Assembly: GCA_017469685.1 (NCBI GenBank) | Contig: JAFUFW010000029.1 | Span: forward strand, 1-55,112 | Origin: Bacteroidaceae bacterium | GTDB lineage: Bacteria; Bacteroidota; Bacteroidia; Bacteroidales; Bacteroidaceae | Direction of reading: 5' to 3' | Length of the DNA stretch: 55,112 nucleotides | Shown here: piece after piece, positions 5,811 through 26,219 of the stretch | How the letters are laid out: every line of letters begins with the position of its first letter | Numbering within the stretch: position 1 is the stretch's first letter | Position numbers and translations under genes: made by a program | Notes under the pieces: model-generated | What the model was told of the DNA's origin: nothing | What the model saw: only the letters and a program-made list of their open reading frames with translations | Databases searched by the model: none

Positions 5811-8255
5811 ATGAAGCCTACAAATCCTTTCGTAACCATCGCAGCAGCAGTTGCCCTGTTGTGCGGAACAAGCTGTTCGAGCAAGACTGGCGGCACGCCT
5901 GCCGACGCCGTTTTCCAACCTTACCAGTCTACGGCACTTCGTGCTCCGTCCGTGCCGCTGGTGGTCAATGACCCTTATTTCTCCATCTGGTCGCCTTACG
6001 ACAAGCTTACCGATGGCACCACTCGCCATTGGACCAACGACGAGAAGCCGCTCGAAGGCCTGCTCACCGTTGACGGCACCGTGTATCGCTGGATGGGCGC
6101 TGAGCGCTTCACTCTTAAGAGTATTGCCCCGATGGCCGATGAAGAGGCTTGGGAGGCTGACTACAGCCGCACGCCGCAGCACGATGGATGGCAGCTTCCC
6201 GATTTCCAGCCGACAGGCTGGCAGCGCGGCCGTGCTGCCTGGGGATCTGACGGACTCGACTTCGTGCGCACCCACTGGAGCGACCTCAACAGCGACCTCT
6301 ACGTGCGCCGCACCGTAAGCCTCACAGCCGACGACCTCAAGGAGGACCTCTGGATGATCTACTCTCACGACGATGTCTTCGAACTTTACGTCAACGGCAC
6401 AAAGGTTGCCGACACTGGAGAGACGTGGGTTGAAGGTGTACGCCTCCACATGGACGAAGAGCTGAAGGCCTTGCTCCACGAGGGCGAGAACGTCATCGCT
6501 GCCCACTGCCACAATACCACTGGCGGTGCTTACACCGACTTCGGACTCTTCAAGAACATGAGCGAGAAGTCGGAGATCGCCACCGCCGAGCAGAAGAGCA
6601 TCAGCGTGCTGGCCACGAACACCTATTACACCTTTGCCTGCGGCCCCGTGGAGCTTGACGTTGTATTCACGGCTCCGATGCTCATGGACGACTACGACCT
6701 GCTGTCGGCCCCCATCAACTACATCTCCTATCAAGTGCGCTCAACCGACGGACAGAAGCACGACGTAAAGTTCAGCCTCTCGGCAGCCCGCGAGCTGGTG
6801 CTCAACAAGGCTTCGCAGCCCACACGCTCTGAGATTATCACCGAGGGCGGCATCCAATACGCCAAGAGCGGCACCGTTGACCAGCCTATCCTGGCCAAGA
6901 AGGGCGACGGCATCTGCATCGACTGGGGTTATCTCTACATCCCCGCCATCAACGGCGAAGTGTCGATTGCCGAGGCAGACCAGCTCGTGTTCACACGCGA
7001 TCTGGGCAAAGTGGACAAAGCTGCCAGCTACATGATGATAGGCTACGACGAGGTGCAGGACATAGAATATATGTATAAGCGCTACAAAGGCTACTGGGCC
7101 CACGAAGGCAAAGTGAGCATCTTTGACATGTTCCGCCGCCTCGACAAGGAGTATGCCTCAATCATGAAGCGCTGCCGCAAGATGGACCAGCGCATATACG
7201 ACGACGGCTTAGCTGCATGTGACAAGCTCTATGCCGAAGTGCTGTCGGCATCCTACCGCCACGTCATTGCGGCCCACAAGCTCTTCCGGGACGACCAAGG
7301 TAACCTGCTATTCTTCTCGAAAGAGAACAACTCCAACGGCTGCGTCAACACCGTGGACCTGACTTACCCCGAGTCGCCCCTCTTCCTCATCTACAACCCC
7401 GAGCTGCAGAAGGCTCAGATGACCTCTATCTTCGACTATAGCCTCAGCGGCCGTTGGACCAAACCTTTCGCAGCCCACGACCTTGGCACTTACCCCATCG
7501 CTAATGGTCAAGTCTACGGCGGCGACATGCCCTTGGAGGAAGCAGGCAATATGCTGACACTGGCAGCACAGCTCTGCCGCATCGACGACAACACGGAGTA
7601 CGTAGACAAGTACTGGGATGTCATCACCACTTGGGCCGAATATCTATCAGAGAACGGTCAGGATCCCGAGAACCAGCTCTGCACCGACGACTTCGCAGGC
7701 CACTGGGCTCACAACTGCAACCTCAGCGTGAAAGCTATTATGGGCGTAGCCGGCTATGCCGAGATGGCTCGCATCAAGGGAGATAAGGCTACGGCCGAGA
7801 AGTATATGGCCCGCGCCAAGGAGATGGCCGAGAAGTGGGAACAGGACGCCCTCGAGGGCGACCACTACCGCCTGGCCTTCGACCGCGAGGACACCTGGAG
7901 CCAGAAGTACAATATGATCTGGGATAAGCTGTGGAAGACGAACCTCTTCCCCAACGATGCCATGGAGCGCGACGTGCAGTACTACCTGACGAAGCAGAAC
8001 CGCTACGGACTGCCACTCGACTGCCGCAAGGACTACACCAAGAGCGACTGGATTATGTGGACGGCAGGTATGGCCAAGGATAAGGCCGACTTCCTGAAGT
8101 TCGTGGAGCCGCTCTACGACTATATGAACGAGACCGAATCACGCGTCCCCACCAGCGACTGGTACGACACCAAGACCGGCCTGATGGTAGGCTTCAAGGC
8201 CCGCTCCGTAATCGCCGGCCACTGGATGCGTGTGCTTGTTGACAAAGAGAAATAA
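5811..8255 (+). CDS. DUF4964/DUF5127/DUF4965/DUF1793 'glutaminase A-like' lipoprotein, first paralogue
   Basis: The 814-residue protein has a lipoprotein signal (Cys22 in CGTSC). The DUF4964 signature follows at about 38-90 (APSVPLVVNDPYFSIWSPYDK). An inserted jelly-roll, GH2-like sugar-binding segment spans about 125-245 (HDDVFELYVNG, NVIAAHCHN). DUF5127 and the DUF4965/DUF1793 alpha-barrel come next (NNSNGCVNTVDLTYPESPLF, CTDDFAGHWAHNCNLS, HYRLAFDREDTWSQKYN). Databases call these glutaminases after fungal GtaA, but in PULs a glycoside-related role is more plausible; the true reaction is unknown. The residues after Cys22 are not acidic, so it may stay periplasmic. It is first in the operon, 28 bp before the next gene. 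A close paralogue lies at 39966-42665. Confidence 0.85.
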   Translation: MKPTNPFVTIAAAVALLCGTSCSSKTGGTPADAVFQPYQSTALRAPSVPLVVNDPYFSIWSPYDKLTDGTTRHWTNDEKPLEGLLTVDGTVYRWMGAERFTLKSIAPMADEEAWEADYSRTPQHDGWQLPDFQPTGWQRGRAAWGSDGLDFVRTHWSDLNSDLYVRRTVSLTADDLKEDLWMIYSHDDVFELYVNGTKVADTGETWVEGVRLHMDEELKALLHEGENVIAAHCHNTTGGAYTDFGLFKNMSEKSEIATAEQKSISVLATNTYYTFACGPVELDVVFTAPMLMDDYDLLSAPINYISYQVRSTDGQKHDVKFSLSAARELVLNKASQPTRSEIITEGGIQYAKSGTVDQPILAKKGDGICIDWGYLYIPAINGEVSIAEADQLVFTRDLGKVDKAASYMMIGYDEVQDIEYMYKRYKGYWAHEGKVSIFDMFRRLDKEYASIMKRCRKMDQRIYDDGLAACDKLYAEVLSASYRHVIAAHKLFRDDQGNLLFFSKENNSNGCVNTVDLTYPESPLFLIYNPELQKAQMTSIFDYSLSGRWTKPFAAHDLGTYPIANGQVYGGDMPLEEAGNMLTLAAQLCRIDDNTEYVDKYWDVITTWAEYLSENGQDPENQLCTDDFAGHWAHNCNLSVKAIMGVAGYAEMARIKGDKATAEKYMARAKEMAEKWEQDALEGDHYRLAFDREDTWSQKYNMIWDKLWKTNLFPNDAMERDVQYYLTKQNRYGLPLDCRKDYTKSDWIMWTAGMAKDKADFLKFVEPLYDYMNETESRVPTSDWYDTKTGLMVGFKARSVIAGHWMRVLVDKEK

Positions 8256-8283
8256 CTAATATAAACCTTATAAACTTAAGAGA

Positions 8284-10056
8284 ATGAAACTGAAGACAAC
8301 AACATTCTCGTCATTAGCTCTCATCACCGCCGTGATCGTCGGCTTCGCAACCACCGGTTGCGAGTCGTCAACAACGGTCGAGGACTATTATGGCGTACAG
8401 TCGTCGGCACCCTTCGACCCGTCGAAGCCCGTGACGATCACTGAGTTCACTCCCACCTCCGGGAGTGTGGGCCAGCAGATTTGCATCAAAGGCTCAAACT
8501 TCGGAAATGACACCTCGCAAGTGCACGTGACCATCGGTGGCAAGGAAGCCATAGTGGTCAGCTGCCGCAGCGAGGCCCTCTATGCCTACGTTCCCAGCGC
8601 CGCCTACGACCAAGTCGAAGGCACCACGCTCCGCGGCTCCGTAGCCGTCAGCGTAGGAGGCAAGACAGGCACGGCAGCAAACCCCTTCACCTACGAGCGT
8701 AAGATGGTCGTAGGCCGCCTCTGCGGTAAGTTTTACGAGCGCGAAGAAGATGTTGTATGGGCCGATGGCTCTTTCGCTACCGACGTCGAAGGCGTCAGTG
8801 GCTTTAAGAACGACGGTGTGATGCAGTTCTCACCCTACAACCACGACCACCTCTTCATCGTCTACGACCAGGAACCGCACTTCGGCACCGTGGCCCACGG
8901 CATACAGCTGCTCGACCTCAAGAACAAGACCGTGCAGACGATTCTGCCCCTGTCGATGTTCTCCAACGAACGTCTGCGCACAATCGACTTCGCCGTAGAC
9001 CCCTTCGCCTACAACGAGGACGGCTCTTTCGAGACCGACGAGGAAGGCAACATCATCGGACGGGCACCCGAGGGATGGATTGAAACAGCTACGCCCAACC
9101 AGAAACGCTGGCGCGAGCACCTCATCATCTCGGCCGACAACGACGACAGCAACTACCGCGCTCACTCCGTCTACATCGTCGACCGCGACGCTGAAGGCAA
9201 CTTCAGCCGCAACTCGCAGGTACGACAGCTGGCCAACTACCGCCAGTGCAACGGCGCAAGCTTGCACCCGGTCAACGGCGAGCTCTACTTCACCAGCTAC
9301 CAGAAGGGTGAGGTCATCCGTCTGGAAATGGACAAGTACTGGGACACGCTGATTCCCGATGCCTCAGGCGGACGCCTGTCTTGGGACCCCTACGTCAACA
9401 ACAACCTTACCGACGCAGCCTCCGGCAGCACCTCTGGCACGGGAGCTTTTGAAATCCTGTTCACCGTGCAGGACACCTACTGGGAGTTCCAGATCGACAT
9501 CCATCCTTCGGGTAAGTTCGCTTACATCGTCGTCATCAATCGCAACTATATCTTGCGCACCGACTACGACGAGAAAACCAAGAAATTCTCTGCCCCCTAC
9601 GTCATCGCCGGCGACATGAGCGCCGAAGGCTTCACCGACGGCGTCGGCAAGAGCGCCCGTCTGCGCCGCCCATACCAGGGCACCTTCGTCAAGAACGAAG
9701 AGTATGAGGCTGCAGGCAACGACGATATCTACGACTTCTACTTCTGCGACAGCCGTAACGACGCCATACGCCTGCTCACCCCAGAAGGCATCGTTAAGAC
9801 CTACGCCGGCGGTAGCGCCGCCACACACGCTGACGGATACACCTACGGCAACGAGAATGGTGAGTTGCGCGACTTCGCTCGCTTCCACCGTCCGACAGGC
9901 CTTGTAAACGATGTCCACCGCGACGCTATCACAGGCGAGAACACCCTTATATTCTATATCCTCGACACGAGCAACTACTGCATCCGCACCATCACGATGG
10001 AGGAGAACCTCGAAGCAGAAGAACCCAAAGAGGAAGTTATTCCACTCCAACAGTAA
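8284..10056 (+). CDS. IPT/TIG-domain, NHL-type beta-propeller surface lipoprotein
   Basis: The 590-residue protein has a lipoprotein signal (TTGC, Cys26). An immunoglobulin-like IPT/TIG domain follows at about 48-140, with ITEFTPTSGSVGQQICIKGSNFG. A long propeller (about 145-575) contains NHL-like units such as SAEGFTDGVGKSARLRRPYQGTFV and NGELRDFARFHRPTGLV. TIG-plus-NHL lipoproteins commonly sit beside SusC/SusD and are thought to act as surface glycan-binding proteins. Only 14 bp separate it from susC, so they are surely cotranscribed. No catalytic signature is visible. The glycan bound is unknown; alpha-mannan is inferred from neighbours. Confidence 0.8.
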   Translation: MKLKTTTFSSLALITAVIVGFATTGCESSTTVEDYYGVQSSAPFDPSKPVTITEFTPTSGSVGQQICIKGSNFGNDTSQVHVTIGGKEAIVVSCRSEALYAYVPSAAYDQVEGTTLRGSVAVSVGGKTGTAANPFTYERKMVVGRLCGKFYEREEDVVWADGSFATDVEGVSGFKNDGVMQFSPYNHDHLFIVYDQEPHFGTVAHGIQLLDLKNKTVQTILPLSMFSNERLRTIDFAVDPFAYNEDGSFETDEEGNIIGRAPEGWIETATPNQKRWREHLIISADNDDSNYRAHSVYIVDRDAEGNFSRNSQVRQLANYRQCNGASLHPVNGELYFTSYQKGEVIRLEMDKYWDTLIPDASGGRLSWDPYVNNNLTDAASGSTSGTGAFEILFTVQDTYWEFQIDIHPSGKFAYIVVINRNYILRTDYDEKTKKFSAPYVIAGDMSAEGFTDGVGKSARLRRPYQGTFVKNEEYEAAGNDDIYDFYFCDSRNDAIRLLTPEGIVKTYAGGSAATHADGYTYGNENGELRDFARFHRPTGLVNDVHRDAITGENTLIFYILDTSNYCIRTITMEENLEAEEPKEEVIPLQQ

Positions 10057-10070
10057 AGCCCCCGACCACT

Positions 10071-13000
10071 ATGAAAAAATATTTAGCTACAATAATGCTC
10101 CTGCTCGGTACGGCTTTCGCAGCTATGGCACAGCAGGAAGTCACCATAACGGGTGTCGTAAGCGATGATACGGGTCCACTGCCTGGCGTCAACGTAACTG
10201 TTAAGGACGCTAAGGGCTTGGGCGCAATAACCAATGTCAATGGTCAGTACACCATTAAGGTGGAGCAGTACAAGACGCTGGTCTTCTCATACATGGGCTT
10301 CCAAAGCCAGGAAGTCATGGTCAAGGACCAGAAGACAATCAACATTACCCTCTCCGAGGCTAAGATCAGCGCCATGGACGAAGTCGTAGTCACCGGTATG
10401 CAGGCTCAGAAGAAGCTCACCCTGACCGGTGCCGTGACCAACGTAAAGATGGAGGAACTGAAGCACTTCAACACCTCAAACATCACCAATACCCTTGCAG
10501 GTAACGTCGCCGGCGTGCTCGCCTTCCAGAAATCGGGTCAGCCAGGTAAGAACACCTCTGAGTTCTGGATTCGCGGTATCAGCACCTTCGGTGCCAGCAA
10601 CTCGGCCTACATCCTCGTCGACGGCTTCGAGCGCGAAAACCTCGACGACATCAACATCGAGGATATCGAGTCGTTCTCTGTCCTCAAGGATGCCTCCGCC
10701 ACCGCTATCTACGGTTCGAAAGGCGCTAACGGCGTCGTGCTCATCACCACGAAGCACGGCCGTGCCGGAAAGGTCGACATCAACGCCAAGTTCGAGACTT
10801 CGTACAACACGCGCACCATCACCCCCGAATTCGTCAGCGGCTTCGACTATGCCAATTATCTGAACGAAGCCCGAGTGACGCGCAACCTCGGCGTGCTCTA
10901 CCAGCCGGTGGAGCTCGACATCATCCGCTATGGCCTCGACCCCGACCTGTACCCCAACGTCGACTGGCAGGACCTGCTGCTGAAGGACGGCGCCATGAGC
11001 TATCGTGCCAACCTGAACATCAGCGGCGGCGGCGAGACAGCACGCTACTACGTCTCGATGGCCTACACGCAGGACGAAGGTATGTATAAGACCGACAAGA
11101 CACTGCGCGACCGCTACGACACTAATGCCAACTACGACCGTTGGAACTACCGCATGAACGTCGACGTCGACGTCACCAAGACCACCGTCTTGAAACTCGG
11201 TATCAGCGGCAACCTCAACAAACGCAACTCTCCGGGTATAGGCGACGACAAGGTCTGGGGCCAGATGTTCGGCTACAACCCACTCTACACCCCTGTGCTC
11301 TACAGCAACGGAACCTTCCCCGCAAAGGGCGTTTTCAATGAATCTACTGAGAACGGTGTCACGGTTTATAAACTCGACGAGAACTACATCAACCCGTGGG
11401 TCAGTTCGACGCAGACAGGTTACAACACCGAGTGGCAAAACAACATCCAGACGAACGTCACCCTGGAGCAGAAACTGGACTTCATCACAAAGGGCCTGAC
11501 CTTCACCGGCCGCTTCGGTTACGACACTTATAATAATAATAGTATCCAGCACCACCGCCTGCCGCCCCTTTATGCTGCACGCTCCCGCAACACCGAGACC
11601 GGACAGCTCGACTTCCAGCAGGTGCAGTCAGTACAGGACATGACTCAGTCGAGCTACAACGATGGTTCACGTCGCGAGTTCCTCGACCTGCTCCTGCACT
11701 GGGACCGCCAGTTCTGGGACTACCACAACTTCGCCGCCAACGTTAAGTTCACCGAGGACCAGAACATCAGCACCCAGAATCTTGGCACGGACATCAAGAA
11801 CTCCGTATCGCGCAAGAACAAGGGTCTGGCTGCCCAGTTCACCTACAACTTCGCCTCGCGCTACTTCGCCGACTTCAACTTCGGCTACAACGGTTCTGAG
11901 AACTTCGCGGACGGCCACCGCTGGGGCTTCTTCCCCGCTTGGTCTGTTGCTTGGAACGTTGGCGAGGAGCCTTGGGTGAAGAAGAACGTCAAGTGGCTCG
12001 ACATGTTCAAGATCCGCTTCTCCAACGGTCGCGTAGGTTCTGATGCTACTGGCGACAACCGCTTCCCCTACCTCTACACCCTCGAAGAGTCTGGCAACGG
12101 CTACACTTGGGGCCAGAACGGGCAGAACAGCTACGGCTCAGTGCGCTATCGCCAGGTAGCTTCAGAGTACGTAACGTGGGAAGTAGCAACGAAGAACGAC
12201 CTTGGTATTGACCTCGTGCTCTTCGACAACAGGTTCTCCCTGACCGTCGACTACTTCGACGAGAAACGTACCGGCATCTTCCAGGAGCGCCGTTACTTGC
12301 CCACCACCGTCGGTCTTGAATATTGGGACAACAATGGTTGGAACTACCCGAAAGCCAACGTGGGCGCTGTAAGTTCACGAGGCTTCGACGGCAACTTCAG
12401 CTACAACGACAAGTTCGGACAGGTTGGTCTGACTGTACGCGGCAACATCACCTACAGCAAGAACAAAATCGAGGAGTACGACGAAGAGAACAACGTCTAC
12501 GCCTACCAGAATCAGTACGGATATCGCGTCAATCAAGTGCGCGGCCTCATAGCCGAAGGACTCTTCAAAGACTATGACGACATTCGCAACTCTCCCGTTC
12601 AAGAGTTTGGAACCGTGCAGCCTGGTGATATCAAATATAAGGACGTAAACGGCGACGGCGTAGTCAACAACGGTGACGTCTGCGCCATCGGTGCCACCGA
12701 CCGTCCCAGCCTCATCTACGGTCTGGGCTTCACGGTAACCTGGAAGGGATTCGACTTCAATGTCCACCTCCAGGGTGCCGGCAAGAGCACCTTCTCGACC
12801 TACGGCAAGTGTGTCTGGGCCTTCAGCGAGAGCCAGTGGGGTAACATCTTCAAGGGCCAGCTCGACAACCGCTGGGTCGACAGCGAGACAGCAGCCAAGC
12901 TCGGCATTCAGGCCAACGAAGATCCCAATGCCACCTACCCGCGCCTCAGCTATGGCGGCAACAGCAACAACGACCGCAACTCAACCTTCTGGCTGCGCGA

Positions 13001-13223
13001 CGGCCGCTATCTCCGTCTGAAGAACCTCGACATCGGTTACACGCTTCCCAAGCATATTGTAAACCAAATCCACTTCTCGAACATTCGCGTATACCTGGCT
13101 GCCACAAACCTGTTCTTCATCCACAAGAAGTTCAGCACATGGGACCCCGAATCCCTGCAGCCGCGCGGCGAGGACTATCCTATCACCAAGGCCGTCACTG
13201 CCGGTCTGCAAGTTAATATCTAA
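10071..13223 (+). CDS. SusC/RagA-family TonB-linked outer-membrane transporter
   Basis: The 1050-residue protein has a signal peptide (about 1-20, ending AMAQ). A carboxypeptidase-regulatory-like domain follows (about 24-105; GVVSDDTGPLPGVNVTVKD). The TonB plug comes next (about 120-235; FWIRGISTFGASNSAYILVDG and SVLKDASATAIYGSKGANGV), then a C-terminal 22-strand barrel. Length and motifs are normal for SusC. There is no N-terminal STN domain, so anti-sigma signalling is not expected. It imports oligosaccharides across the outer membrane in complex with the SusD encoded next. The gap to susD (85 bp) contains a GC-rich palindrome that could tune relative expression. Confidence 0.95.
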   Translation: MKKYLATIMLLLGTAFAAMAQQEVTITGVVSDDTGPLPGVNVTVKDAKGLGAITNVNGQYTIKVEQYKTLVFSYMGFQSQEVMVKDQKTINITLSEAKISAMDEVVVTGMQAQKKLTLTGAVTNVKMEELKHFNTSNITNTLAGNVAGVLAFQKSGQPGKNTSEFWIRGISTFGASNSAYILVDGFERENLDDINIEDIESFSVLKDASATAIYGSKGANGVVLITTKHGRAGKVDINAKFETSYNTRTITPEFVSGFDYANYLNEARVTRNLGVLYQPVELDIIRYGLDPDLYPNVDWQDLLLKDGAMSYRANLNISGGGETARYYVSMAYTQDEGMYKTDKTLRDRYDTNANYDRWNYRMNVDVDVTKTTVLKLGISGNLNKRNSPGIGDDKVWGQMFGYNPLYTPVLYSNGTFPAKGVFNESTENGVTVYKLDENYINPWVSSTQTGYNTEWQNNIQTNVTLEQKLDFITKGLTFTGRFGYDTYNNNSIQHHRLPPLYAARSRNTETGQLDFQQVQSVQDMTQSSYNDGSRREFLDLLLHWDRQFWDYHNFAANVKFTEDQNISTQNLGTDIKNSVSRKNKGLAAQFTYNFASRYFADFNFGYNGSENFADGHRWGFFPAWSVAWNVGEEPWVKKNVKWLDMFKIRFSNGRVGSDATGDNRFPYLYTLEESGNGYTWGQNGQNSYGSVRYRQVASEYVTWEVATKNDLGIDLVLFDNRFSLTVDYFDEKRTGIFQERRYLPTTVGLEYWDNNGWNYPKANVGAVSSRGFDGNFSYNDKFGQVGLTVRGNITYSKNKIEEYDEENNVYAYQNQYGYRVNQVRGLIAEGLFKDYDDIRNSPVQEFGTVQPGDIKYKDVNGDGVVNNGDVCAIGATDRPSLIYGLGFTVTWKGFDFNVHLQGAGKSTFSTYGKCVWAFSESQWGNIFKGQLDNRWVDSETAAKLGIQANEDPNATYPRLSYGGNSNNDRNSTFWLRDGRYLRLKNLDIGYTLPKHIVNQIHFSNIRVYLAATNLFFIHKKFSTWDPESLQPRGEDYPITKAVTAGLQVNI

Positions 13224-13237
13224 AGGCCCACCCCCTA

Positions 13238-13258
13238 CCCCTCCCTGTGAGGGAGGGG
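13238..13258. repeat. GC-rich palindrome between susC and susD
   Basis: CCCCTCCCT and AGGGAGGGG flank a 3-nt GTG loop, giving a perfect 9-bp stem. It belongs to the same sequence family as the elements at 15512-15590, 16690-16730 and 16824-16865. It has no T-run, so it is more likely an RNA-stabilising or repeat element than a terminator. Confidence 0.65.
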
Positions 13259-13308
13259 AGAGTGGTTAGATAACGAGATTTGATTTCAATAGATTCATTA
13301 GAAAGAAA

Positions 13309-15507: not shown

Positions 15508-15511
15508 AGTT

Positions 15512-15590: not shown

Positions 15591-15627
15591 GACTGACAAG
15601 AATAGAAATATATTATCACATACAATT

Positions 15628-16680: not shown

Positions 16681-16689
16681 GATAAAAAA

Positions 16690-16865
16690 GACTCTCCCCC
16701 GCCCTCCCTGTCAGGGAGGGAGCGATTACCTAACAAGAATTGAAAACAAACAACACGATGAAGTATTATAAGTATTTCCTAACAAACATACTTTTATTAT
16801 CAACGACCCTCCTGCCCGCACAGGTAACCGCTCCCTCCCTGACAGGGAGGGCGGGGGCAGAGTCC
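16690..16865. repeat. Near-perfect 41/42-bp inverted repeat enclosing the GH92 start
   Basis: The left arm is 16690-16730 and the right arm 16824-16865. They are reverse complements except for one substitution and one inserted base. Each arm contains its own palindrome CCCTCCCTG-N-CAGGGAGGG. The 93-nt loop holds the GH92 initiation region. The right arm lies inside the GH92 coding sequence, in frame. Confidence 0.9.
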
Positions 16866-19118
16866 CCTTCTTCTTACGTTAGTCCATTAGTCGGCACCCT
16901 CTCCAAGCACTCTCTCAGCACGGGCAACACATATCCGGCCATAGCTCTGCCCTGGGGCATGAACTTCTGGACGCCCCAGACAGGGCGTATGGGCGACGGA
17001 TGGCAGTACGTTTACACCGAGGATAAGCTCCGCGGCATTAAGCAGACCCACCAGCCCTCGCCTTGGATAAATGACTACGGCCAGTTTGCCATCATGCCAA
17101 CCACCCGCACCGTCTTCCGCGAAGACGATCGCGCTTCATGGTTCAGTCATAAGGCTGAGGTTGCTACACCTTATTATTATAAGGTATACCTTGCCGATTG
17201 GGATGTCGTAGCCGAACTGGCTCCTACAGAGCGTGCAGCCATCATGCGACTGACCTATCCTGAGACCGACGATGCGCGCGTCGTCATCGACCCATTTGAT
17301 GGTGGTTCCTACCTGCAAATCGACGACAGCAAGCGCCGCGTAATAGGCTACACCACCAAGAATAGCGGTGGCGTGCCTGAAAGCTTCAAGAACTACTTCA
17401 TCATTGAGTTCTCACATCCCATCACCTTCGCTGCCACCTATGGCGACAAGAGCACGGGCTCGCTCGACGTTGGCACCGTGGAGCGAAAAGACAACCATGT
17501 GATTGGCGTCGTAGGCTTCCCCCGACTAAAGCGAGGCGAACAGGTGACGCTCCGTATCGCATCCTCTTTCATCAGCTTCGAGCAGGCTGAGCGCAACCTA
17601 CAGGAGCTGGGAGCCCGCACCTTCGACCAGATCTGCGCTGCCGGCCGCCAGCGCTGGGACGACGTCCTTGGGCGCATCCGCATCGAGGACGACGACATCG
17701 ACCACATGCGCACATTCTACAGTTGCCTCTATCGCTCCGTCCTTTTCCCCCGCTCGTTCTTCGAATACGGCACCGACGGGCAGCCCATCCACTACAGCCC
17801 ACATACGGGCGAAATACAGCCTGGCCGCTATTTCACCGACACCGGTTTCTGGGACACCTTCCGCTGCCTCTTTCCGCTCCTAAACCTTGTTTATCCAGAG
17901 ATGAACGTCCAGATGCAGGAGGGCCTCGTCAACTGCTACCGCGAGAGCGGCTTCCTGCCCGAATGGGCCAGCCCCGGTCATCGCGGCTGCATGGTCGGCA
18001 ACAACTCGGCCTCCGTCGTGGCCGATGCCTACCTGAAACTCTTCTCCACGTCCTCGCAGGGAGGGCCTGATGGTTGCGCGTCCTACGACATCGAAGCCCT
18101 CTGGCAGGCCGTCAAGCATGGAGCCAATGCCGTGCACCCGCAGGTCGGCTCCACGGGGCGCATGGGCTTCGAGTTCTACAACAAGCTCGGTTATGTGCCC
18201 TACGATGCTGGCATCAATGAGAGCGTGGCACGAACGCTCGAGTATGCCTACGACGACTGGTGCATCTATCAGCTCGGCCGCAGGCTCGGGAAGAAGGAAA
18301 AAGAGTTGAAGCCATTCCGCGATCATGCCCTCAACTACCGCAACGTCTTCGACCCCGAGACCAAGCTAATGCGTGGTCGCCTGAAGGACGGCAAGTTCCA
18401 GGAGCCCTTCAATCCCTTGAAGTGGGGCGACGCCTTCACCGAGGGCAATGCCTGGCACTACACGTGGTCCGTCTTCCACGACCCCGAGGGCCTCATCCGC
18501 CTGATGGGCGGTAAGGACGTCTTCGTCGCCATGCTCGACTCCGTGTTCAACGTCCCGCCCCTCTTCGACGAGAGTTACTACGGCGGTGTCATCCACGAGA
18601 TACGCGAGATGCAGATAATGAACATGGGCAACTACGCCCACGGCAACCAGCCTATCCAACACATGATCTACCTCTACGACTGGGCCGGCCAGCCTTGGAA
18701 GTCACAACAGCGCGTCCGCGAGGTCATGGACCGCTTCTACACCCCTGCCCCCGACGGCTACTGCGGCGACGAGGACAATGGTCAGACCTCCGCCTGGTAT
18801 GTCTTCTCGGCCCTTGGCTTCTATCCCGTATGCCCCGGCTCTGGTGAGTACGCCATCGGCACGCCCTATTTCCGCAAGGCCACAGTGCAGTTGCCTACAG
18901 GCAATACCATAACGATTGAAAGCACAAACACAAGACTACCATACATCCAGCGGCTGACGGTCGACGGGCAGCCCTACACGCACAACTACCTCCGCCACGA
19001 AGACCTGCTACGAGGGGCCACGCTCCACTTCGACTTAGGCCCGCAGCCCAACCGCTCGCGCGGCACAGCTGCTGACGATGCCCCCTACAGCTTCACGTCC
19101 GAACTCAGCCAGAAGTAA
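16758..19118 (+). CDS. GH92 alpha-mannosidase, probably alpha-1,2-specific
   Basis: I chose ATG 16758 (786 residues) over the upstream TTG 16740 because it begins a good signal peptide ending LLPAQ. The N-terminal beta-domain starts at YVSPLVGT; the (alpha/alpha)6 domain carries the family core. By spacing from Bacteroides BT3990, Glu562 (FTEGNAW) matches the catalytic acid and Asp671/Asp673 (GDEDNGQTSAWYVFSALG) the base pair. His613-Glu614 (VIHEIREM) match the pair that recognises an alpha-1,2-linked mannose. The usual HGNEPSHH reads HGNQPIQH. Residues shortly after the signal peptide come from a GC-rich repeat element. It would trim mannosides released by GH76. There is no C-terminal sorting tail. 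Confidence 0.9.
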   Translation: MKYYKYFLTNILLLSTTLLPAQVTAPSLTGRAGAESPSSYVSPLVGTLSKHSLSTGNTYPAIALPWGMNFWTPQTGRMGDGWQYVYTEDKLRGIKQTHQPSPWINDYGQFAIMPTTRTVFREDDRASWFSHKAEVATPYYYKVYLADWDVVAELAPTERAAIMRLTYPETDDARVVIDPFDGGSYLQIDDSKRRVIGYTTKNSGGVPESFKNYFIIEFSHPITFAATYGDKSTGSLDVGTVERKDNHVIGVVGFPRLKRGEQVTLRIASSFISFEQAERNLQELGARTFDQICAAGRQRWDDVLGRIRIEDDDIDHMRTFYSCLYRSVLFPRSFFEYGTDGQPIHYSPHTGEIQPGRYFTDTGFWDTFRCLFPLLNLVYPEMNVQMQEGLVNCYRESGFLPEWASPGHRGCMVGNNSASVVADAYLKLFSTSSQGGPDGCASYDIEALWQAVKHGANAVHPQVGSTGRMGFEFYNKLGYVPYDAGINESVARTLEYAYDDWCIYQLGRRLGKKEKELKPFRDHALNYRNVFDPETKLMRGRLKDGKFQEPFNPLKWGDAFTEGNAWHYTWSVFHDPEGLIRLMGGKDVFVAMLDSVFNVPPLFDESYYGGVIHEIREMQIMNMGNYAHGNQPIQHMIYLYDWAGQPWKSQQRVREVMDRFYTPAPDGYCGDEDNGQTSAWYVFSALGFYPVCPGSGEYAIGTPYFRKATVQLPTGNTITIESTNTRLPYIQRLTVDGQPYTHNYLRHEDLLRGATLHFDLGPQPNRSRGTAADDAPYSFTSELSQK

Positions 19119-19146
19119 AACATTAATGTTATCGTTAACCTTGAAC

Positions 19147-19228
19147 AAGCGACCATACGCATTGGTCAATTCATCCAATCGGGAAAGCAAACACGACTGG
19201 ACGCATTGTCCTGCGCGACTGGTCGCTT
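19147..19228 (+). promoter_or_regulatory. Possible RNA hairpin in the 135-bp gap after GH92
   Basis: AAGCGACCA (19147-19155) pairs perfectly with TGGTCGCTT (19220-19228), followed by an AT-rich tract (TATTATTTA). The sequence ACGCATTG is repeated within it. A leader, processing or attenuation role for the downstream genes is possible, but the loop is long and the evidence weak. Confidence 0.3.
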
Positions 19229-19253
19229 TATTATTTATCCGCAGTACAGAGAA

Positions 19254-21137
19254 ATGAAGAACATAGCAAGAAGCATCACCACAATCTGCTTGTTACTGAC
19301 ATTCGCCGCCCTGCCAGCCCTGGCGCAGGACTATCGCACAGGCATACGCATTGGTTGGGACTATCGCACTCAACGTTTCGTCTCTGGCGGAGCTTATGGA
19401 AGGCTCAAGGTGCTCAGCAACGGGCTCGAAGCCTTTGTCTATGACGAAGGCGGCACTTGCAAGATACGTTTACGTCGCAGCGGAGTCAGCAGCTTTGCCT
19501 CAGCTATAACCGTTGCAACACCCCCGTCAGGCTCGGGCTATACGAATTGTGAATTGCTTGAACTGGCCGACGGCACACTTATGTATGCCTACAACGAGCG
19601 CATCAATGGCACAGGCGTGAAGATAAAGGTCAAATACTCCGTTAATGGCGGCCGCACATGGCGCGACGAGCAGACCGTCTACGAAGTTCGTGAGAGCGAC
19701 TTCCTTGCCGACGAAGGCTACTATGGCATCTGGGAGCCGGCAATGATTCAGCTGCCGAATGGCGAGGTGCAGCTCTATTTCGCAAGTGAGTACCTCGTGC
19801 CCGGCCACGACCAGAAGATAGTCATGCTACGCTCACTCACTGTTTCCGAGAGCGGAGCCCGCGTGTGGGAGGCGCAGGCTGTCGACGTCAGCTACACCGT
19901 AGGCTACCGCGACGGCATGCCAGTGCCCCTCGTCCTTCGCGACGGCAAAGGCATTGTCTTCGCCATCGAGGACGACGGCTTCGGCGGCGGCTTCCAGCCT
20001 GGCATCATCTATTCTTCGATGACCGACAACTGGACCAGCGGCATACGCTATGGCGACAGCCGCAACCGTTGGCGGGCAATCATCGACGGTGAGCCGCGCG
20101 GAGGCGGAGCGCCCTATATCATACAGCTCACGTCGGGCGAGACGCTAATCTCTACTCAGACCAACTATTTCAACGACCAGCGAGGAGCGCCCTTGGATGA
20201 TATGTACAAGAACCGTCCATTCGTCTACATAGGCGATGCCGACGCCCGCAACTTCAGCCGCTACTCCATCCCCTTCCCATTCATCGACGAGCCCAACCAA
20301 GGCGGCGTCTGGAACGCCTTATGCCAGACCAACGACTCTACCGTAGTCTGCGTCTCCGACGTGCATGGCCACCCTACTCAGAGCGGGCTATGGATTGTCG
20401 ACGGCCATATTATGCACCCGCTGACGGCCTACTCCATACCCGCCGGCACCGCTCTTGAGGGAATAGAATGGGCGCCCCTGATGTCCGACATCATCGTGGG
20501 TGCGCAGACTCAGGCTCAGATGCGCGTGGCCTCATGCTGGTCAACGGACTCGCTCTTCCTCCATTTCGTCGTCAACGACCGCACCCTCCGCTCCGGCTCC
20601 AACGGTGCTCCTGTCTGGGACACCGACGGCGTAGAGTTCTACTGCGACATGTACAACCGTATGACCGACAACGTTCCCACCAACGCAGTGAAATATCTCG
20701 TAAACATTGACGGCGGCACGCTCGTCACGCGCATGGCAGCCCAGGGATGGACAGACGTCGACCCGTCCTTACACCAGATGCACCACATCGTGACCCGCTC
20801 TGACACCCACTACACTATCGACATGGCACTCCCATGGGGCAACCTGCTGCGCCGCCCGACGAGCAAGAAGTTTGCAGCCTACTTCAAGCTCCACAACAAC
20901 GACCTCCACGGCGGTAAGGAATGTATCCACCACGAAGTGCTCTCTGGCGTCGATGAGGGCCGTGTCCGCACATGGTGGCAGGTCACGATGGACAGTGCAC
21001 CCGATGCCATAGAAGCACCTCGCTTCGAGCCCACGGCCGATTCTTCAGCAGCCTTCTACAATCTGCAAGGCCTCCCCACCCGCTTTCCGAGCCGGGGAAT
21101 CTATATTGTAGACGGCAAAAAGGTGGCAATAAAATAG
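19254..21137 (+). CDS. Sialidase-like beta-propeller with C-terminal CBM9-like domain
   Basis: I chose ATG 19254 (627 residues) because MKNIARSITTICLLL...ALAQ is a clean signal peptide; the frame is open further upstream. Residues about 22-400 form a BNR/sialidase-type propeller with an Asp-box-like YSVNGGRTW and IWEPAMIQLPNGEVQLYFASE. The arginine-bearing FRIP motif of true sialidases is absent, so sialic acid is unlikely; GH93-like or another exo-activity is possible. About 430-590 resembles CBM9-type sugar binding (WSTDSLFLHFVVND, WDTDGVEFYCDMYN). The C-terminus carries the shared tail (FYNLQGLPTRF...GIYIVDGKKVAIK). It lies between GH92 and GH76 in the operon. Confidence 0.7.
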   Translation: MKNIARSITTICLLLTFAALPALAQDYRTGIRIGWDYRTQRFVSGGAYGRLKVLSNGLEAFVYDEGGTCKIRLRRSGVSSFASAITVATPPSGSGYTNCELLELADGTLMYAYNERINGTGVKIKVKYSVNGGRTWRDEQTVYEVRESDFLADEGYYGIWEPAMIQLPNGEVQLYFASEYLVPGHDQKIVMLRSLTVSESGARVWEAQAVDVSYTVGYRDGMPVPLVLRDGKGIVFAIEDDGFGGGFQPGIIYSSMTDNWTSGIRYGDSRNRWRAIIDGEPRGGGAPYIIQLTSGETLISTQTNYFNDQRGAPLDDMYKNRPFVYIGDADARNFSRYSIPFPFIDEPNQGGVWNALCQTNDSTVVCVSDVHGHPTQSGLWIVDGHIMHPLTAYSIPAGTALEGIEWAPLMSDIIVGAQTQAQMRVASCWSTDSLFLHFVVNDRTLRSGSNGAPVWDTDGVEFYCDMYNRMTDNVPTNAVKYLVNIDGGTLVTRMAAQGWTDVDPSLHQMHHIVTRSDTHYTIDMALPWGNLLRRPTSKKFAAYFKLHNNDLHGGKECIHHEVLSGVDEGRVRTWWQVTMDSAPDAIEAPRFEPTADSSAAFYNLQGLPTRFPSRGIYIVDGKKVAIK

Positions 21138-21195
21138 GTTTAGTGACAGGTTCTTTTGAGAAACAAAGATTAGATATTAATAATAAAAAAGTGAT

Positions 21196-22677
21196 ATGGC
21201 AACAAAATCATCCCCTTACACAGCCTCACGATGGCTGCTGTGCTTATTCTTGTACTCTATATTCCTATTCATATCAGGCACGAATTCCCTTCTGGCTCAA
21301 AACGTCACTTTCACAATTACTGATGCCATGCAGTGGAAAGCGTATGATGACTTCAACGAAGCTCTCATCGACAAGACAAGCAACATATATATGGCCGATA
21401 CCGAACAGCCCTCTGCCAACCATCGCGGCAACGGAGCACGCGACAACGACCGCTCAGGCTGTGCAGCCGCTATCTGGTGTCAGGCCATATACTACGACAT
21501 GGTCATCAATGCCTACAACCGCGCCAAGGCTGAAGGCAACGAGGAGCTGATGAACAAATACAAGGAGCTGCACGACAAAATATACAGAGGAGAGAAAGCG
21601 CACTACGTGAACTTCAACTTCAACGACGCCAACACCAACACCGGTTGGTTCATATACGACGACATTATGTGGTGGACGTGCGCTCTGGCACGAGCCTATG
21701 AAGCTTTTGGTGCATCAGAGTTTCTGGTTGTATCTGAGCGCAGTTTCTGCCGCGTGTGGTACGGCAGTTCCACCGTTGGCGACGATGGTTCCTATGCCGA
21801 CCCCGCACGTTTCAGCGGCAAGGCCGGAGGAGGAATGTTCTGGGAGTGGCAGCCCATAAATAATCCCAAGCCCCACCAGGCTGGCGACTTCCGCTCTGCT
21901 TGCATCAACTTCCCCACGGTCATCGCAGCCAGCCTCCTGCACCAGCTTGTCCCTGAGGGTCGTCCCGTACCCACGCAGGCGCGCCCGCAGCGTCAGACCA
22001 AGGAATGGTATCTGGAGAAAGCCATAGAAATCTACGACTGGGCGAGCAAGACTCTTGCCCCCTCCAACGGGCGCGTAGCCGATGGCATCCACGGCGGCGA
22101 CCCTGAATACTCCGACCACCTTTATAACCAGGCCACATACATCGGAGCCAGCTGTCTGCTGTATAAGCTCACAGGCGAAGAGAAATATAAGACCAATGCC
22201 ATCGCTGGCACCAGGTATGTATTCTCCAGAATGGTCAATAGCAGACGAGTCCTCAAGTATGAGAACGGCTATGAGCAGGGCATCTACGCCGCAATATTTG
22301 CTCAGTACTTGCCGATGGTGGTCTACGACCTTGGCGAGACATCATTCCTTCAGTATATCCAGCGAAACATGCAGACTGCGTGGGATAATCGCGACCCCGA
22401 GCGGGGGCTTCAGGCAGGCGACTTCACCAAGAAGACTTCCAGCACAGATGTTGTTGAGAGCTATGGCGGCAGTGGTATGCCCGCACTCATGCTCATGTTC
22501 CCCGCCCACAGCATGACCGACGGTATTCATGCTATCAATGAACAGCCTGCTGCCGACAACCTCCAATCCAAGCTTTTCAACTTTCAATCAGCCTTCGACC
22601 TCCACGGCCGCCCTTTTCTGCCCCCTTTTCGCCGGGGCATTTATGTCATGGGCGGACGTAAGATAATAGTGAAATAA
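21196..22677 (+). CDS. GH76-family endo-alpha-1,6-mannanase
   Basis: The 493-residue protein has an N-terminal signal (about 1-34, ending LLAQ). An (alpha/alpha)6 domain carries the GH76 hallmark double aspartate in FIYDDIMWWTCALARAYE (Asp155-Asp156, acid/base and nucleophile in the family). Other conserved-looking parts are GGGMFWEW, DHLYNQATYIGASCLLYKLTG, YENGYEQGIYAAIFAQYLP and SYGGSGMPALML. GH76 enzymes cut the alpha-1,6-mannan backbone of yeast mannan and related glycans. The C-terminus has the shared sorting-like tail (FDLHGRPFLP...GIYVMGGRKIIVK). This gene and GH92 together define the predicted substrate of the locus. Confidence 0.88.
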   Translation: MATKSSPYTASRWLLCLFLYSIFLFISGTNSLLAQNVTFTITDAMQWKAYDDFNEALIDKTSNIYMADTEQPSANHRGNGARDNDRSGCAAAIWCQAIYYDMVINAYNRAKAEGNEELMNKYKELHDKIYRGEKAHYVNFNFNDANTNTGWFIYDDIMWWTCALARAYEAFGASEFLVVSERSFCRVWYGSSTVGDDGSYADPARFSGKAGGGMFWEWQPINNPKPHQAGDFRSACINFPTVIAASLLHQLVPEGRPVPTQARPQRQTKEWYLEKAIEIYDWASKTLAPSNGRVADGIHGGDPEYSDHLYNQATYIGASCLLYKLTGEEKYKTNAIAGTRYVFSRMVNSRRVLKYENGYEQGIYAAIFAQYLPMVVYDLGETSFLQYIQRNMQTAWDNRDPERGLQAGDFTKKTSSTDVVESYGGSGMPALMLMFPAHSMTDGIHAINEQPAADNLQSKLFNFQSAFDLHGRPFLPPFRRGIYVMGGRKIIVK

Positions 22678-22715
22678 TCAAATTTGAAACCTCTAAGACA
22701 CTTACCTATATAAAG

Positions 22716-25700
22716 ATGAAACGTTCCATACTTCTCCTCGTATGCTTCCTATTAGGCTTAGGAAGCAACTTTGCCGCTGTCAACACGAAACAGTGGATGG
22801 CAAACTTAAATGACAATATCTTTATTGCGCAGATGTCGCTACCTGGAGCCCATAATGCGGCAACAAAGAATGTTAGCATTGGCAAATGCCAGGATAAGGA
22901 CATTGCTGGATTATGGGATGCAGGCGTGCGTGTCTTCGATCTCCGACCGACGGATGCCGACGGATGCCCCCTCTATCATGGCATCATCTCTACGGGTATC
23001 AATCTGTCCCAAGCACTCACAACCATAACAGGCAGGCTGTCTACCTATCCCAGCGACTTTGCAATTATCATCATGCGCAACGAGAACGACGGTGGCAGCA
23101 CTGACAACTGGAAGAGCCGCGTGAGCGCTATCATGAACAATTTCTCCGACTTCGTTATTCCTTTGACTCCTAATCTGCGTCTTGCCGATGTGCGAGGAAA
23201 ACTCATAGTCCTTAGTCGCGACTATTACGCTGACGGATATACAATAAGCGGATGGGGCCATAGCACACCGTCGGTTGAGGCATCAGCCAACGGCATTGCG
23301 TTTACCCTTCAGGACTATTATGAGGTAAAAGATACCGATGCCAAGTCGTCGGCTATAGTCTCTCTGCTCGCAAATGCGCGAACCAACAACAGCCTCAGTC
23401 GTATGTTCATCAACCATACGTCCGGCTACGTCCCTGGCCTTATACCTGGCTTAAGCGATGATATCACCGGCAACGCCTCGACCTGCAACACCGCCGCGCT
23501 GAACGCCATCAACGCCAACCCCGGCCCTACGGGCATGGTGCTTATGGACTTCGCAGGCTCCAGCAGCTACAACGGGGCCAACCTATGCAATGCCATCATT
23601 GAGCAGAACAGCAAGATTGCGACCGCTGCAGTCTCCGCGCCCGCTACGGGGCAGTACTACGTCTACAACGTGGAGCGCAAGATGTACATCACCCGCAGCA
23701 ACAACTATGCCACCCGTGCCGGCTTTGACAAGGGCGGAATGCCGATTGCCGTGAACAATGCTGGCGACGGCACGCTTACACTTGTGACAAACGTAAATGG
23801 AACGGGTAAAGGAATCTTCATTGCCGACAACAATGGCGAGACCGTCTACGTGGACAACACACCAACGCCGTGGACTTTCGAGTGCATCGACGAAAGTCAG
23901 GGCATATATACTTTAAAGAATGGCAACAACTACCTCCAGGCCAAGGATGGCCAGACCCGCCTGGAAGCAGGTGCGCTGCCGAGCAACAAGAGTGCCCAGT
24001 GGCAGTTCGTACCGAGGAACGTGCGCGAAGACCTCAGCGGAGCCTCATCCACGAACCCCGTCGACGTCACCTTCCTGCTCGAGAACCAAGGCTTCGACCG
24101 CTACAGCAATGAGCAGAACTCGTGGCGCAACGCCGACAACAGCAATTGGCGTCCGGGCGACGGATGGTGCCACAATGCCGATGCGTCCAACAACTGCGCT
24201 GAAGTTTGGAATGCCAACTTCGATATTCATCAATCGTTCACAGGACTCAAGAACGGTGTCTATGAGCTCAGGGTGCAAGGCTACTACCGAATCAGCGTCG
24301 CCAACAACAGCGACTACATCATAGAGCAGATGCGCGCAGGCAAAGATGTCAGACGAGCCAAGTACTACATCAACGACGCCGAGGCCTACCTCTTGCCGCA
24401 ACTCTCTGCCGACCTGCCTGCCGAATATGCCGACAACAGCGTAGACATCAACGGCACTACCTACCGCTACCCCAACGGTAAGGGCACGGCTTCCATAGCC
24501 TTCCGCGAGGGCTACTACGAGAACGAGCCCATTCAGGTTATTGTCAAGGACGGGAACATCACCATCGGCCTGAAGCTCGAAAACAAGAACGGTGAAGACT
24601 GGACTTGCTTCGACAACGTCCGCCTCTACTATCTTGGAGAGCCTGACATCAGTCAGTTCACCTATGCCCTCGAGCAGGCCATTGCCAGTGCCCAAGCTTT
24701 CAGCGGTAACACCACAACAGCGCTGCAGAATGCCCTTGCCACGGCGCTTGCCGAGGCCATCGCTGTGCGCCAGTCCACCGACACCAACGTGCTGACGGCG
24801 AAGACCGACGCCCTGAATGCAGCCCGCAGCAACGCCGAAGCCGTGGACATCACATTCCTCGCTGCCACGATGCCACTGGCCGAATCTGTCGGCATCAACG
24901 TCACTGATGCCGCCAACGTTATAGCCACAGCCACAACGCTGAGCGCTGTCAACACAGCCCTCAATGCGCTGCGCATAGCCCGCCGCGTGGCGAATGCCGA
25001 GACCCACGCCGACGTCTTCGCAGGCCATGAGCCCGCACCCGGCGACTACTATTTATATAATGTAGGCTCCGGACGCTTCCTTTGCGGGGGTGCTGATTGG
25101 GGCGCTCACGCCGCCCTCGGCTTCCCGGGTATAATAGTAACACTCGAAGCTACCGAGACGGAGGGCGTATATAAGCTGAACACTCATCTGAACAACGGTG
25201 ACCACAACGGGAATCCGAAAGAGTACCTTAACTACGACGGCTACTGCGACACGTGGACTACAGAATCCTGGAAGTTCATCTCGCAAGGCGGCGGCAAATA
25301 CAACATCGTGCGCAGCGCCAACGAAGCTAACCTGCTCGGCTTTGAGGGCGTAACCTACAACAACGTCATCACCAACTGCGTCACACCCACAGGCCCCACC
25401 AACCAATGGAAACTCGTCACCAAGGCCGACCGCGACGCGCTGCTGGCGACAGCCACCCCCGAGGCTCCTCAGGATGCCTCGTACCTCATCCAGTCGCCCA
25501 ACTTCAGCCAGAGAGAGGACGTCAGCGCTTGGACCTTCACCGGCGGGGCAGAGATATGGGGCCGTGGCAACAACCACCCCGACTTCGCCGCCGAAGCCTA
25601 CAACAAAACTGAGGCCAGCGTAGAGCAAACCCTCACTGGATTGCGGCCAGGCATCTACAGGCTTAAGGCTCAAGCTCTCTACCGTGACGGCAACTTCAAC

Positions 25701-26219
25701 ACGCAGGCGCAGACTCTTGTCCAGGGAGGCGACGCGCTACAGCTGGCAACGCTCTATGCCGGCAGCGAGAGCACACTAATCCAGAATGTCTCTGCAGGCG
25801 CTGATCAAGTTCCCGGCATAGGCTCCGCTTCAATCGTAGGATATATGCCCGACGGCATCGACGATGCCTGCCTTTATTTCCAGAACGGCATCTATTGGAC
25901 TACAGTGGATGAGATAGTAGTGGGACAGGACGGCACACTGACCTTTGGTGTACGCAAGACCGAGAAGCGAAACGACGCCGACTGGATGGTGGCCGACAAC
26001 TTCAGGCTCATATATCTCGGGGCGGCAGTAGCTGCGGGCGATGTCAACCGCGACGGCACGGTAACCATTGCCGACGTCACGGCCCTCGTCAACATCATAC
26101 TCGGCAAGGATGAGGCTGAGCCTTACCAGTACGACCACACGGCCGCCGACGTCAACAGCGACGGCACCATAACCATTGCCGACGTCACAGCCCTTGTCAA
26201 CATAATACTCGGAAAGTAA
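22716..26219 (+). CDS. Multimodular PI-PLC-like phospholipase with dockerin
   Basis: The 1167-residue secreted protein (signal 1-21) starts with a PI-PLC X-type domain (about 25-305). Aligned by eye to B. cereus PI-PLC, His46 (MSLPGAHNA) and His88 (LYHGI) match the catalytic histidines, and Asp75 and Arg77 (VFDLRP) match Asp67 and Arg69. Next are a ricin-like YVYNVERKMY module (about 312-440), jelly-roll 1 (about 452-642), a helical Ala-rich linker (645-765), a second YLYNVGSGRFLCGG module (about 775-905) and jelly-roll 2 (about 920-1103). Two dockerin-I EF-hand repeats (1108-1167; GDVNRDGTVTIADV, ADVNSDGTITIADV) end it. It could release GPI-anchored glycoproteins; that is inference. Last gene of the operon. 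Confidence 0.8.
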   Translation: MKRSILLLVCFLLGLGSNFAAVNTKQWMANLNDNIFIAQMSLPGAHNAATKNVSIGKCQDKDIAGLWDAGVRVFDLRPTDADGCPLYHGIISTGINLSQALTTITGRLSTYPSDFAIIIMRNENDGGSTDNWKSRVSAIMNNFSDFVIPLTPNLRLADVRGKLIVLSRDYYADGYTISGWGHSTPSVEASANGIAFTLQDYYEVKDTDAKSSAIVSLLANARTNNSLSRMFINHTSGYVPGLIPGLSDDITGNASTCNTAALNAINANPGPTGMVLMDFAGSSSYNGANLCNAIIEQNSKIATAAVSAPATGQYYVYNVERKMYITRSNNYATRAGFDKGGMPIAVNNAGDGTLTLVTNVNGTGKGIFIADNNGETVYVDNTPTPWTFECIDESQGIYTLKNGNNYLQAKDGQTRLEAGALPSNKSAQWQFVPRNVREDLSGASSTNPVDVTFLLENQGFDRYSNEQNSWRNADNSNWRPGDGWCHNADASNNCAEVWNANFDIHQSFTGLKNGVYELRVQGYYRISVANNSDYIIEQMRAGKDVRRAKYYINDAEAYLLPQLSADLPAEYADNSVDINGTTYRYPNGKGTASIAFREGYYENEPIQVIVKDGNITIGLKLENKNGEDWTCFDNVRLYYLGEPDISQFTYALEQAIASAQAFSGNTTTALQNALATALAEAIAVRQSTDTNVLTAKTDALNAARSNAEAVDITFLAATMPLAESVGINVTDAANVIATATTLSAVNTALNALRIARRVANAETHADVFAGHEPAPGDYYLYNVGSGRFLCGGADWGAHAALGFPGIIVTLEATETEGVYKLNTHLNNGDHNGNPKEYLNYDGYCDTWTTESWKFISQGGGKYNIVRSANEANLLGFEGVTYNNVITNCVTPTGPTNQWKLVTKADRDALLATATPEAPQDASYLIQSPNFSQREDVSAWTFTGGAEIWGRGNNHPDFAAEAYNKTEASVEQTLTGLRPGIYRLKAQALYRDGNFNTQAQTLVQGGDALQLATLYAGSESTLIQNVSAGADQVPGIGSASIVGYMPDGIDDACLYFQNGIYWTTVDEIVVGQDGTLTFGVRKTEKRNDADWMVADNFRLIYLGAAVAAGDVNRDGTVTIADVTALVNIILGKDEAEPYQYDHTAADVNSDGTITIADVTALVNIILGK

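Follow-up and report, generated by a model that had tools for sequence, protein, structure and literature searches.

Bacterial phosphatidylinositol-specific phospholipase C (PI-PLC) is known mostly as a virulence-associated phospholipase and as a laboratory reagent that strips glycosylphosphatidylinositol (GPI)-anchored proteins. In the genome of a Bacteroidaceae bacterium, a gene for a PI-PLC-like protein instead closes a run of glycan-degrading genes, and the question raised by this locus is what such an enzyme would do behind alpha-mannan-active glycosidases. The run lies at positions 5811-26219 of the window, the whole 55,112-nucleotide stretch of DNA analysed, which is an entire contig (C81, JAFUFW010000029.1) of assembly GCA_017469685.1, a genome of 94 contigs that is 87% complete. 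The original prediction proposed that the locus serves foraging on GPI-anchored mannoproteins, and we find this plausible. Our best explanation, to which we give a probability of about 45%, is an alpha-mannan-type polysaccharide utilization locus (PUL) that acquired, in one sub-lineage, a secreted, calcium-independent PI-PLC of bacterial type, which most likely releases GPI-anchored, mannose-bearing glycoproteins.

The run comprises nine plus-strand genes, and the adjoining SusC and SusD genes, accompanied by glycan-active genes on the same strand, define it as a PUL. The SusC/RagA TonB-linked transporter (10071..13223; TIGR04056, 1043 bits) is followed by a SusD-family protein (13309..15507; PF07980, 204.5 bits). 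The glycoside hydrolase (GH) families that had been called from the letters alone were recovered with family models. The GH92 alpha-mannosidase (16740..19118; PF07971, 559.7 bits) aligns over its full length with 2wvx, the sequence of which is identical to 2ww1; the latter is named BT3990 in the available text of PMC9522356, while that of PMC5930347 gives 2wvy instead. Once an offset of 19 is allowed for, the residue numbers in the available part of PMC5930347 agree with the sequence of 2wvx, so that W109, H619 and E620 of the window enzyme equal the alpha-1,2 triad Trp88, His584 and Glu585, and E568 equals the acid Glu533. With triad and acid all kept, the enzyme is of the BT3990 alpha-1,2-mannosidase type. 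The GH76 protein (21196..22677, plus strand; PF03663, 77.2 bits against a cut-off of 25.9) keeps the YDD motif, a catalytic Asp pair present in 8/8 aligned sequences. No GH125 was found among the 18 window proteins scanned. Elsewhere the GH76 slot of the orthologous PUL is filled by two very different types: in a comparison of window 21196-22677 with L041, L101-L104, L106 and L107, the L104 protein is 72% identical to that of the window and six others are 22-26% identical, a pattern that we read from the sequences as a non-orthologous swap.

The run does end, as predicted, in a PI-PLC-like gene on the same strand (22716..26219), separated from the GH76 stop by 38 bases. Its product of 1167 amino acids (aa) has a signal-peptide-like start, a PI-PLC domain in its first quarter (22716-23640), repeat modules related to the protein encoded at 31954-34923, and a dockerin-type C-terminus. 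In a search against solved structures, residues 23-281 align with the Bacillus PI-PLC 3ea3 (E 5.4e-18) across the whole catalytic domain. Bacillus H32, D67, R69, H82, R163, W178, D198, Y200 and D274 correspond to H46, D75, R77, H88, R168, W180, D200, Y202 and D278 of the window protein, positions with catalytic or inositol-contact roles. Of the residues that form the catalytic set of bacterial PI-PLC (H32, D33, R69, H82, D274), the window retains H46, R77, H88 and D278 and replaces D33 with N47; K115 of Bacillus is R121. H46, D75, R77, H88, R168 and D278 are invariant in 32 aligned sequences, the window included, and W180, D200 and Y202 are at least 90% conserved in the same set. Position 47 is Asn in 5/32 (the window, L012, L007, L009 and L010) and Asp in the remainder. 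Because the catalytic and inositol-contact positions are largely kept, the window enzyme should, judging from these residues, bind an inositol phosphodiester; the change of Asp to Asn could lower its rate.

Eight homologues of the PI-PLC domain come from Bacteroidaceae, Prevotellaceae or Prevotella metagenome-assembled genomes; where a sampling site is stated, it is yak, roe deer or rumen. The C-terminus is a dockerin-type repeat in the window (26034-26210), as opposed to a GVYVxxGKKxxVK-type tail in L102:415-5793 (minus strand). The window's own genome contains six matches to dockerin and a single one to cohesin, which shares a 1305-aa frame with a dockerin. It also carries a second PI-PLC-like gene, L011:14575-16254, about 34-40% identical; neither GH92 nor GH76 was matched over the surrounding 19.7 kb.

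The PUL itself can be traced through related genomes. SusD orthologues (E <=1e-100) occur in 25/399 genomes, and 22 loci were examined (the window, L041 and L101-L120, with the SusD loci of G003, G257 and G258 set aside), each within contexts that end at about 20 kb or at contig ends, as in L108, L111 and L118. The TIG-domain protein, SusC, SusD and the BT_3044-like protein are present in all 22. Of the 21 loci other than the window, 12 have GH92 directly next, and a 62-65% identical GH92 lies nearby in L116 and L117. The PI-PLC gene adjoins the PUL in three species, and the two PI-PLC domains outside the window share 68 and 80% identity with that of the window.

PI-PLC-like genes are also linked to alpha-mannosidases in other clades. 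They occur in 107/301 genomes of the family. When 121 non-window PI-PLC contexts (G154:C20 left out) were searched by tblastn with the window GH92 as query (E <=1e-4, matches of at least 41 residues, settings that miss divergent GH92), 8 contained GH92 and one, L041, contained GH76. A family-wide pairing of PI-PLC with GH76 was accordingly rejected; when coordinates were compared by eye, for at most six scored candidates per genome, the two close pairs were those of the window and G110, which represent one orthologous locus. With uniform placing, roughly 0.30 GH92 genes would be expected at distances up to 1.5 kb and 1.6 at distances up to 8 kb, a rough floor based on the best ~5 GH92 per genome in 69 genomes; GH92 was observed within 1.5 kb in 5 genomes from two lineages, and 8 lie within the contexts.

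In genus g20 (G240, G200, G101 and G227), a GH92 gene whose product is 58-60% identical to the window's is followed on the same strand by a gene for a 338-aa PI-PLC, with 123-263 bases between the open reading frames (ORFs). No SusC or SusD match lies near these pairs (L045, L046, L050, L052), the surroundings of which look housekeeping-like, and in six further PI-PLC-bearing g20 genomes no GH92 adjoins the PI-PLC gene. G263 has genes for GH20, an EEP-bearing protein, PI-PLC, GH92 and two melibiases consecutively, with 6 bases between PI-PLC and GH92. The row at L202:21-14136 reads GH20, a protein with F5/8 and EEP domains, PI-PLC (661 aa), GH92 and two melibiase-type proteins. The PI-PLCs of g20, G263 and G295/g3 are 23-36% identical to that of the window and keep the nine positions in 9/10 cases; over all proteins compared the nine are kept in 12/13. 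The departing sequence is L202, a piece ending at 360 aa in which Asn replaces R163 and the D274 position falls in a gap. At the K115 position, Lys is found in g3, Arg in g20, Gln in L202 and Asn in L223.

Further linked cases come from genus g3 and from G295. G219 and G269 share the order PI-PLC, ROK, SusC, SusD, GH92, EEP, alkaline phosphatase, MGH1-like, GH125 and GH20, the GH20 gene being next to the PUL in G219 and, by look, in G269, where the PUL ends beside a metallophosphoesterase gene. G232 has the same order, with a second EEP and a 269-aa protein encoded between SusD and GH92; the stretch available for G232 stops within a GH125-like gene. In G295 the order is SusC- and SusD-like, metallophosphoesterase with PA14, GH92, alkaline phosphatase, MGH1-like, GH125, EEP and PI-PLC, and no ROK gene was seen in that locus. 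Genes were named by Pfam in G219 and in parts of G232 and G269, and by start and length otherwise; in the stretches that cover G219, G269, G232 and G295 (L228, L231, L232, L237), SusD, SusC and housekeeping genes of L228, L231 and L237 and the GH125 and GH20 genes of L231 and L232 were named by start, length and position. Among the matches listed, PI-PLC is present in 16/119 g3 genomes, and in 8 of these 16 GH125 and alkaline phosphatase lie within 14 kb on the same strand. Also among the matches listed, G466 and G412 have the phosphatase alone near PI-PLC and the other 6 have neither gene on the PI-PLC contig: GH125 and phosphatase are on other contigs in G456 (two places) and G437, there is no GH125 match and the phosphatase is on another contig in G421 and G489, G074 has a shortened SusC with neither gene near, and G491 has a weak PI-PLC match with neither gene on its contig. 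G269 and G232 lie outside this 16-genome draw and their ORFs were read individually. The second EEP protein of the G232 PUL (L219:941-1762, minus strand) matches the PGAP2IP C-terminal model at 33 bits (cut-off 27) and the general EEP model at 61.5 bits; going by its name, PGAP2IP is a eukaryotic GPI-related protein.

The GPI core consists of three mannoses, linked alpha-1,2, alpha-1,6 and alpha-1,4 to glucosamine-inositol phosphate, together with ethanolamine phosphates, and mammalian GPI has a beta-N-acetylhexosamine (beta-HexNAc) side branch. The chain Man-Man-Man-GlcN appears in the accessible text of PMC12295086, and the alpha-1,4 bond and the ethanolamine of the core in that of PMC5930347, according to which alpha-1,4-mannose occurs mainly in GPI cores and in the cell walls of fungi. 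The g3 PUL would supply candidates for nearly every GPI bond: the lipid would fall to PI-PLC, the ethanolamine- and inositol-phosphates to the phosphatases, and the alpha-mannoses and beta-HexNAc to the glycoside hydrolases. The nearest relatives of the G269 GH92 are BT3130, 7zgm and BT3965 rather than BT3990, and the BT3130/BT3965 clade has alpha-1,3 and alpha-1,4 activities according to PMC5930347. Clade membership leaves the linkage of the g3 GH92 unfixed, and since the window GH92 is BT3990-like, the two enzymes are by their nearest relatives of different types. The g3 PUL reads like a GPI-glycan PUL and is more striking in this respect than the window. Tentatively, and with less conviction than for the window reading given above, we suggest that gut and rumen Bacteroidota have PULs built for GPI anchors, of which the window would be a rumen version, a mannan PUL with an anchor cutter.

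For the window, the GPI-mannoprotein reading is based on gene content, order and strand, on the kept catalytic and substrate residues, on the three-species adjacency and on the linkage of PI-PLC to mannosidases in other clades. That fungi have GH76 enzymes with activity on the GPI core (PMC12295086) also speaks for it. If the run is co-transcribed and its PI-PLC secreted, as we infer, the enzyme would cut the inositol phosphodiester of GPI anchors, and plain phosphatidylinositol (PI) too, and so free GPI-anchored, mannose-bearing glycoproteins from eukaryotic cells in the gut, which might be fungi, ciliates, plant or host. Acting outside the cell, GH76 would then cleave the alpha-mannosyl chains; the SusC/SusD/binding-protein set would take up the fragments, and GH92 would strip alpha-1,2-mannose.

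Several results weigh against this reading. The PF00388 model scores 18.0 bits with the full protein and 21.1 bits with its first 308 residues, below the cut-off of 23.1, so that annotation by Pfam alone would overlook the domain (among relatives, L227 at 30.6 and L202 at 30.1 bits pass, and L223 and L045 give no match at E 0.01). Next to the catalytic His, the window and G110 have Asn in place of the Bacillus Asp, and the loop after this His, which in Bacillus holds a membrane-binding Trp, is shorter. GH76 is closest to alpha-1,6-mannanases of Bacillus type, its nearest solved relatives, and its PDB matches include no Dfg5 entry. PI-PLC stands at the PUL end in 3/22 loci, namely the window, L041 (G110) and L102 (G346; matching record L003), and was not found in the other 19, some of which are clipped by contig ends; in G362 and G222, both close relatives, the PUL is present and PI-PLC is not. 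Given 3/22, PI-PLC was rejected as a core PUL part, and with its absence from those close relatives it looks like a late addition, retained through at least three species. In the tree, L003, a copy located in the PUL, pairs with L004, and in the stretches examined for the near homologues L004 and L005 no SusC, SusD, GH92 or GH76 match was found. Finally, GH92 went undetected by tblastn in 113 of the 121 other PI-PLC contexts, although G232 and G269, counted among the 113, each have GH92 at the edge of the stretch or just beyond it. What is supported of the proposed GPI-mannoprotein foraging is a mannan-type PUL, a PI-PLC with a largely kept active site, its shared strand and close spacing, its adjacency in three species and its linkage to GH92 in other clades; cleavage of GPI, induction by mannan or mannoprotein and a need of the PUL for PI-PLC are predictions that go further.

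Taken together, the 3/22 loci and the 113/121 contexts mean that PI-PLC could be a hitch-hiker, and a mannan-only PUL with a hitch-hiking lipase is a serious rival. The enzyme would then be a general secreted phospholipase for membrane PI that landed behind GH76 by chance and has no part in mannan use, serving instead in scavenging of phosphate, inositol or lipid, or in cell lysis. The commonness of PI-PLC-like genes in the family, mostly without a detected GH92, agrees with this, as do the single GH76 context, the bare surroundings of L004 and L005 and the orthologous PULs in which no PI-PLC was found. Chance landing fits less well with an adjacency retained in three species, with domains as similar as 68 and 80%, and with a link to GH92 or to a PUL in g20, g15 and g3, and we consider it a substantial possibility that nevertheless has the odds against it. 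A target among the inositol lipids of other bacteria, such as PI or the inositol sphingolipids of neighbouring Bacteroidota, with a role in antagonism or scavenging, is improbable. Bacteroidota do produce inositol lipids, and several close relatives of the window protein are large, multi-domain and without a PUL match near, but the repeated alpha-mannosidase linkage would be left unexplained.

Two further alternatives concern the chemistry of the domain. It is very unlikely that the enzyme cuts another phosphodiester of mannan, such as the mannose-1-phosphate links of yeast mannan: the inositol-contact positions R168, D200 and Y202 are kept, and by chemical reasoning the family mechanism requires a neighbouring cis hydroxyl, which alpha-mannose-1-phosphate does not have. 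Such bonds do occur in mannan, since a GH92 that decaps its mannosyl-phosphate is known from the accessible text of PMC5930347. Equally slim is the chance that the domain is non-catalytic and now a lipid- or glycan-binding module. The Asn for Asp next to the catalytic His in 5/32 aligned sequences would suit such a module, and so would a protein made up otherwise of repeat modules and a dockerin; against it, the two catalytic His residues and the Arg are preserved, as is Asp at the positions of D67 and D274, and the sister copy L003 from the same PUL has Asp at position 33.

The remaining genes of the run add to what had been described before, as does the finding that PI-PLC forms the first quarter of a dockerin-ended protein. 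The first gene (5811..8255, plus strand) encodes a GtaA-type six-hairpin protein (DUF4964/DUF5127/GtaA_6_Hairpin), a homologue of which lies directly 5' of the TIG gene in L113 and L117 too. It is followed by a TIG-domain, lipoprotein-like protein, probably a surface glycan-binding protein (8284..10056, plus strand), and a second probable surface glycan-binding protein with DUF4973 and BT_3044-like_C domains lies between SusD and GH92 (15628..16680, plus strand). Between GH92 and GH76 is a protein with a CBM9-like domain and a weak, sub-cut-off BNR-like match (19206..21137, plus strand), which has a homologue in L102 alone among the 21 other loci searched. A hybrid two-component system (HTCS) regulator is encoded 3' of the PUL on the opposite strand (26338..30345, minus). 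Assigning it to the PUL as regulator by its position alone was rejected; its homologue in L008 (50%) adjoins homologues of the first GH43 gene and of the gene at 31954, and it more likely belongs to the next locus, which begins with GH43 at 30577. No match to it was found in L041, the stretch of which stops 3.7 kb past the PI-PLC gene. The next locus (window 30577-42665) contains GH43, a 989-aa repeat protein, a CotH/LTD protein, GH43 and a GtaA-type protein. Counts of promoter- and terminator-like sites differed by about 1.2 standard deviations or less from shuffled sequence (12 vs 8.9, 10 vs 13.6, 5 vs 4.1, 5 vs 6.5).

If PI-PLC sits in glycan-eating operons of gut bacteria, GPI anchors become a recognised nutrient source. 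Possible targets would then be GPI-anchored proteins on the gut lining, for which intestinal alkaline phosphatase, GP2 and LYPD8 are examples, as well as those on fungi and ciliates. The GPI reading would also give a class of substrate-unassigned PULs a concrete and cheap test. In searches of an open-access library, a scope outside of which most subscription papers fall, none of the papers listed (the best-ranked ones where there were many) was seen to describe PI-PLC within a PUL; the phospholipase of PMC9522356 is a test protein from bee venom, and neither PMC8100220 nor a look for the name of a mannan phosphatase gene added anything. The claim of the original prediction that the combination is undescribed is uncontradicted there, but the available text of PMC5930347 already suggests GPI cores as a possible target of a Bacteroides GH92 alpha-1,4-mannosidase.

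Compared with the PI-PLC of Bacillus cereus and Bacillus thuringiensis (3ea3, 1gym), the window domain is alike in length and in its catalytic and inositol-contact positions, and differs in the D33 to N and K115 to R changes, the shorter loop after the His, about 860 extra residues with a dockerin-type end, and its location in a PUL. The alpha-mannan PULs of Salegentibacter Hel_I_6 and Bacteroides thetaiotaomicron contain SusC and SusD as well, and that of B. thetaiotaomicron also has GH76 as its endo-enzyme together with GH92. Both the window and the Hel_I_6 PUL, as described in PMC9213526, combine a GH76 endo-enzyme with GH92; Hel_I_6 has six GH92 and a GH125, whereas the window has one GH92, one GH76 and a terminal PI-PLC, and the strings 'phosph' and 'GPI' are absent from the part of that text examined. 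In the available part of PMC5930347, BT3965 is a Bacteroides GH92 alpha-1,4-mannosidase from a PUL of unassigned function, with GPI cores named as a site of its linkage and PI-PLC unmentioned, whereas the window GH92 is of the BT3990 alpha-1,2 type. Fungal Dfg5 acts, according to the accessible text of PMC12295086, on the mannose-glucosamine bond of the GPI core and shares the GH76 family with the window enzyme, which best matches the Bacillus-type alpha-1,6-mannanases instead. All parts of the locus belong to known families; what is new is their combination in one PUL.

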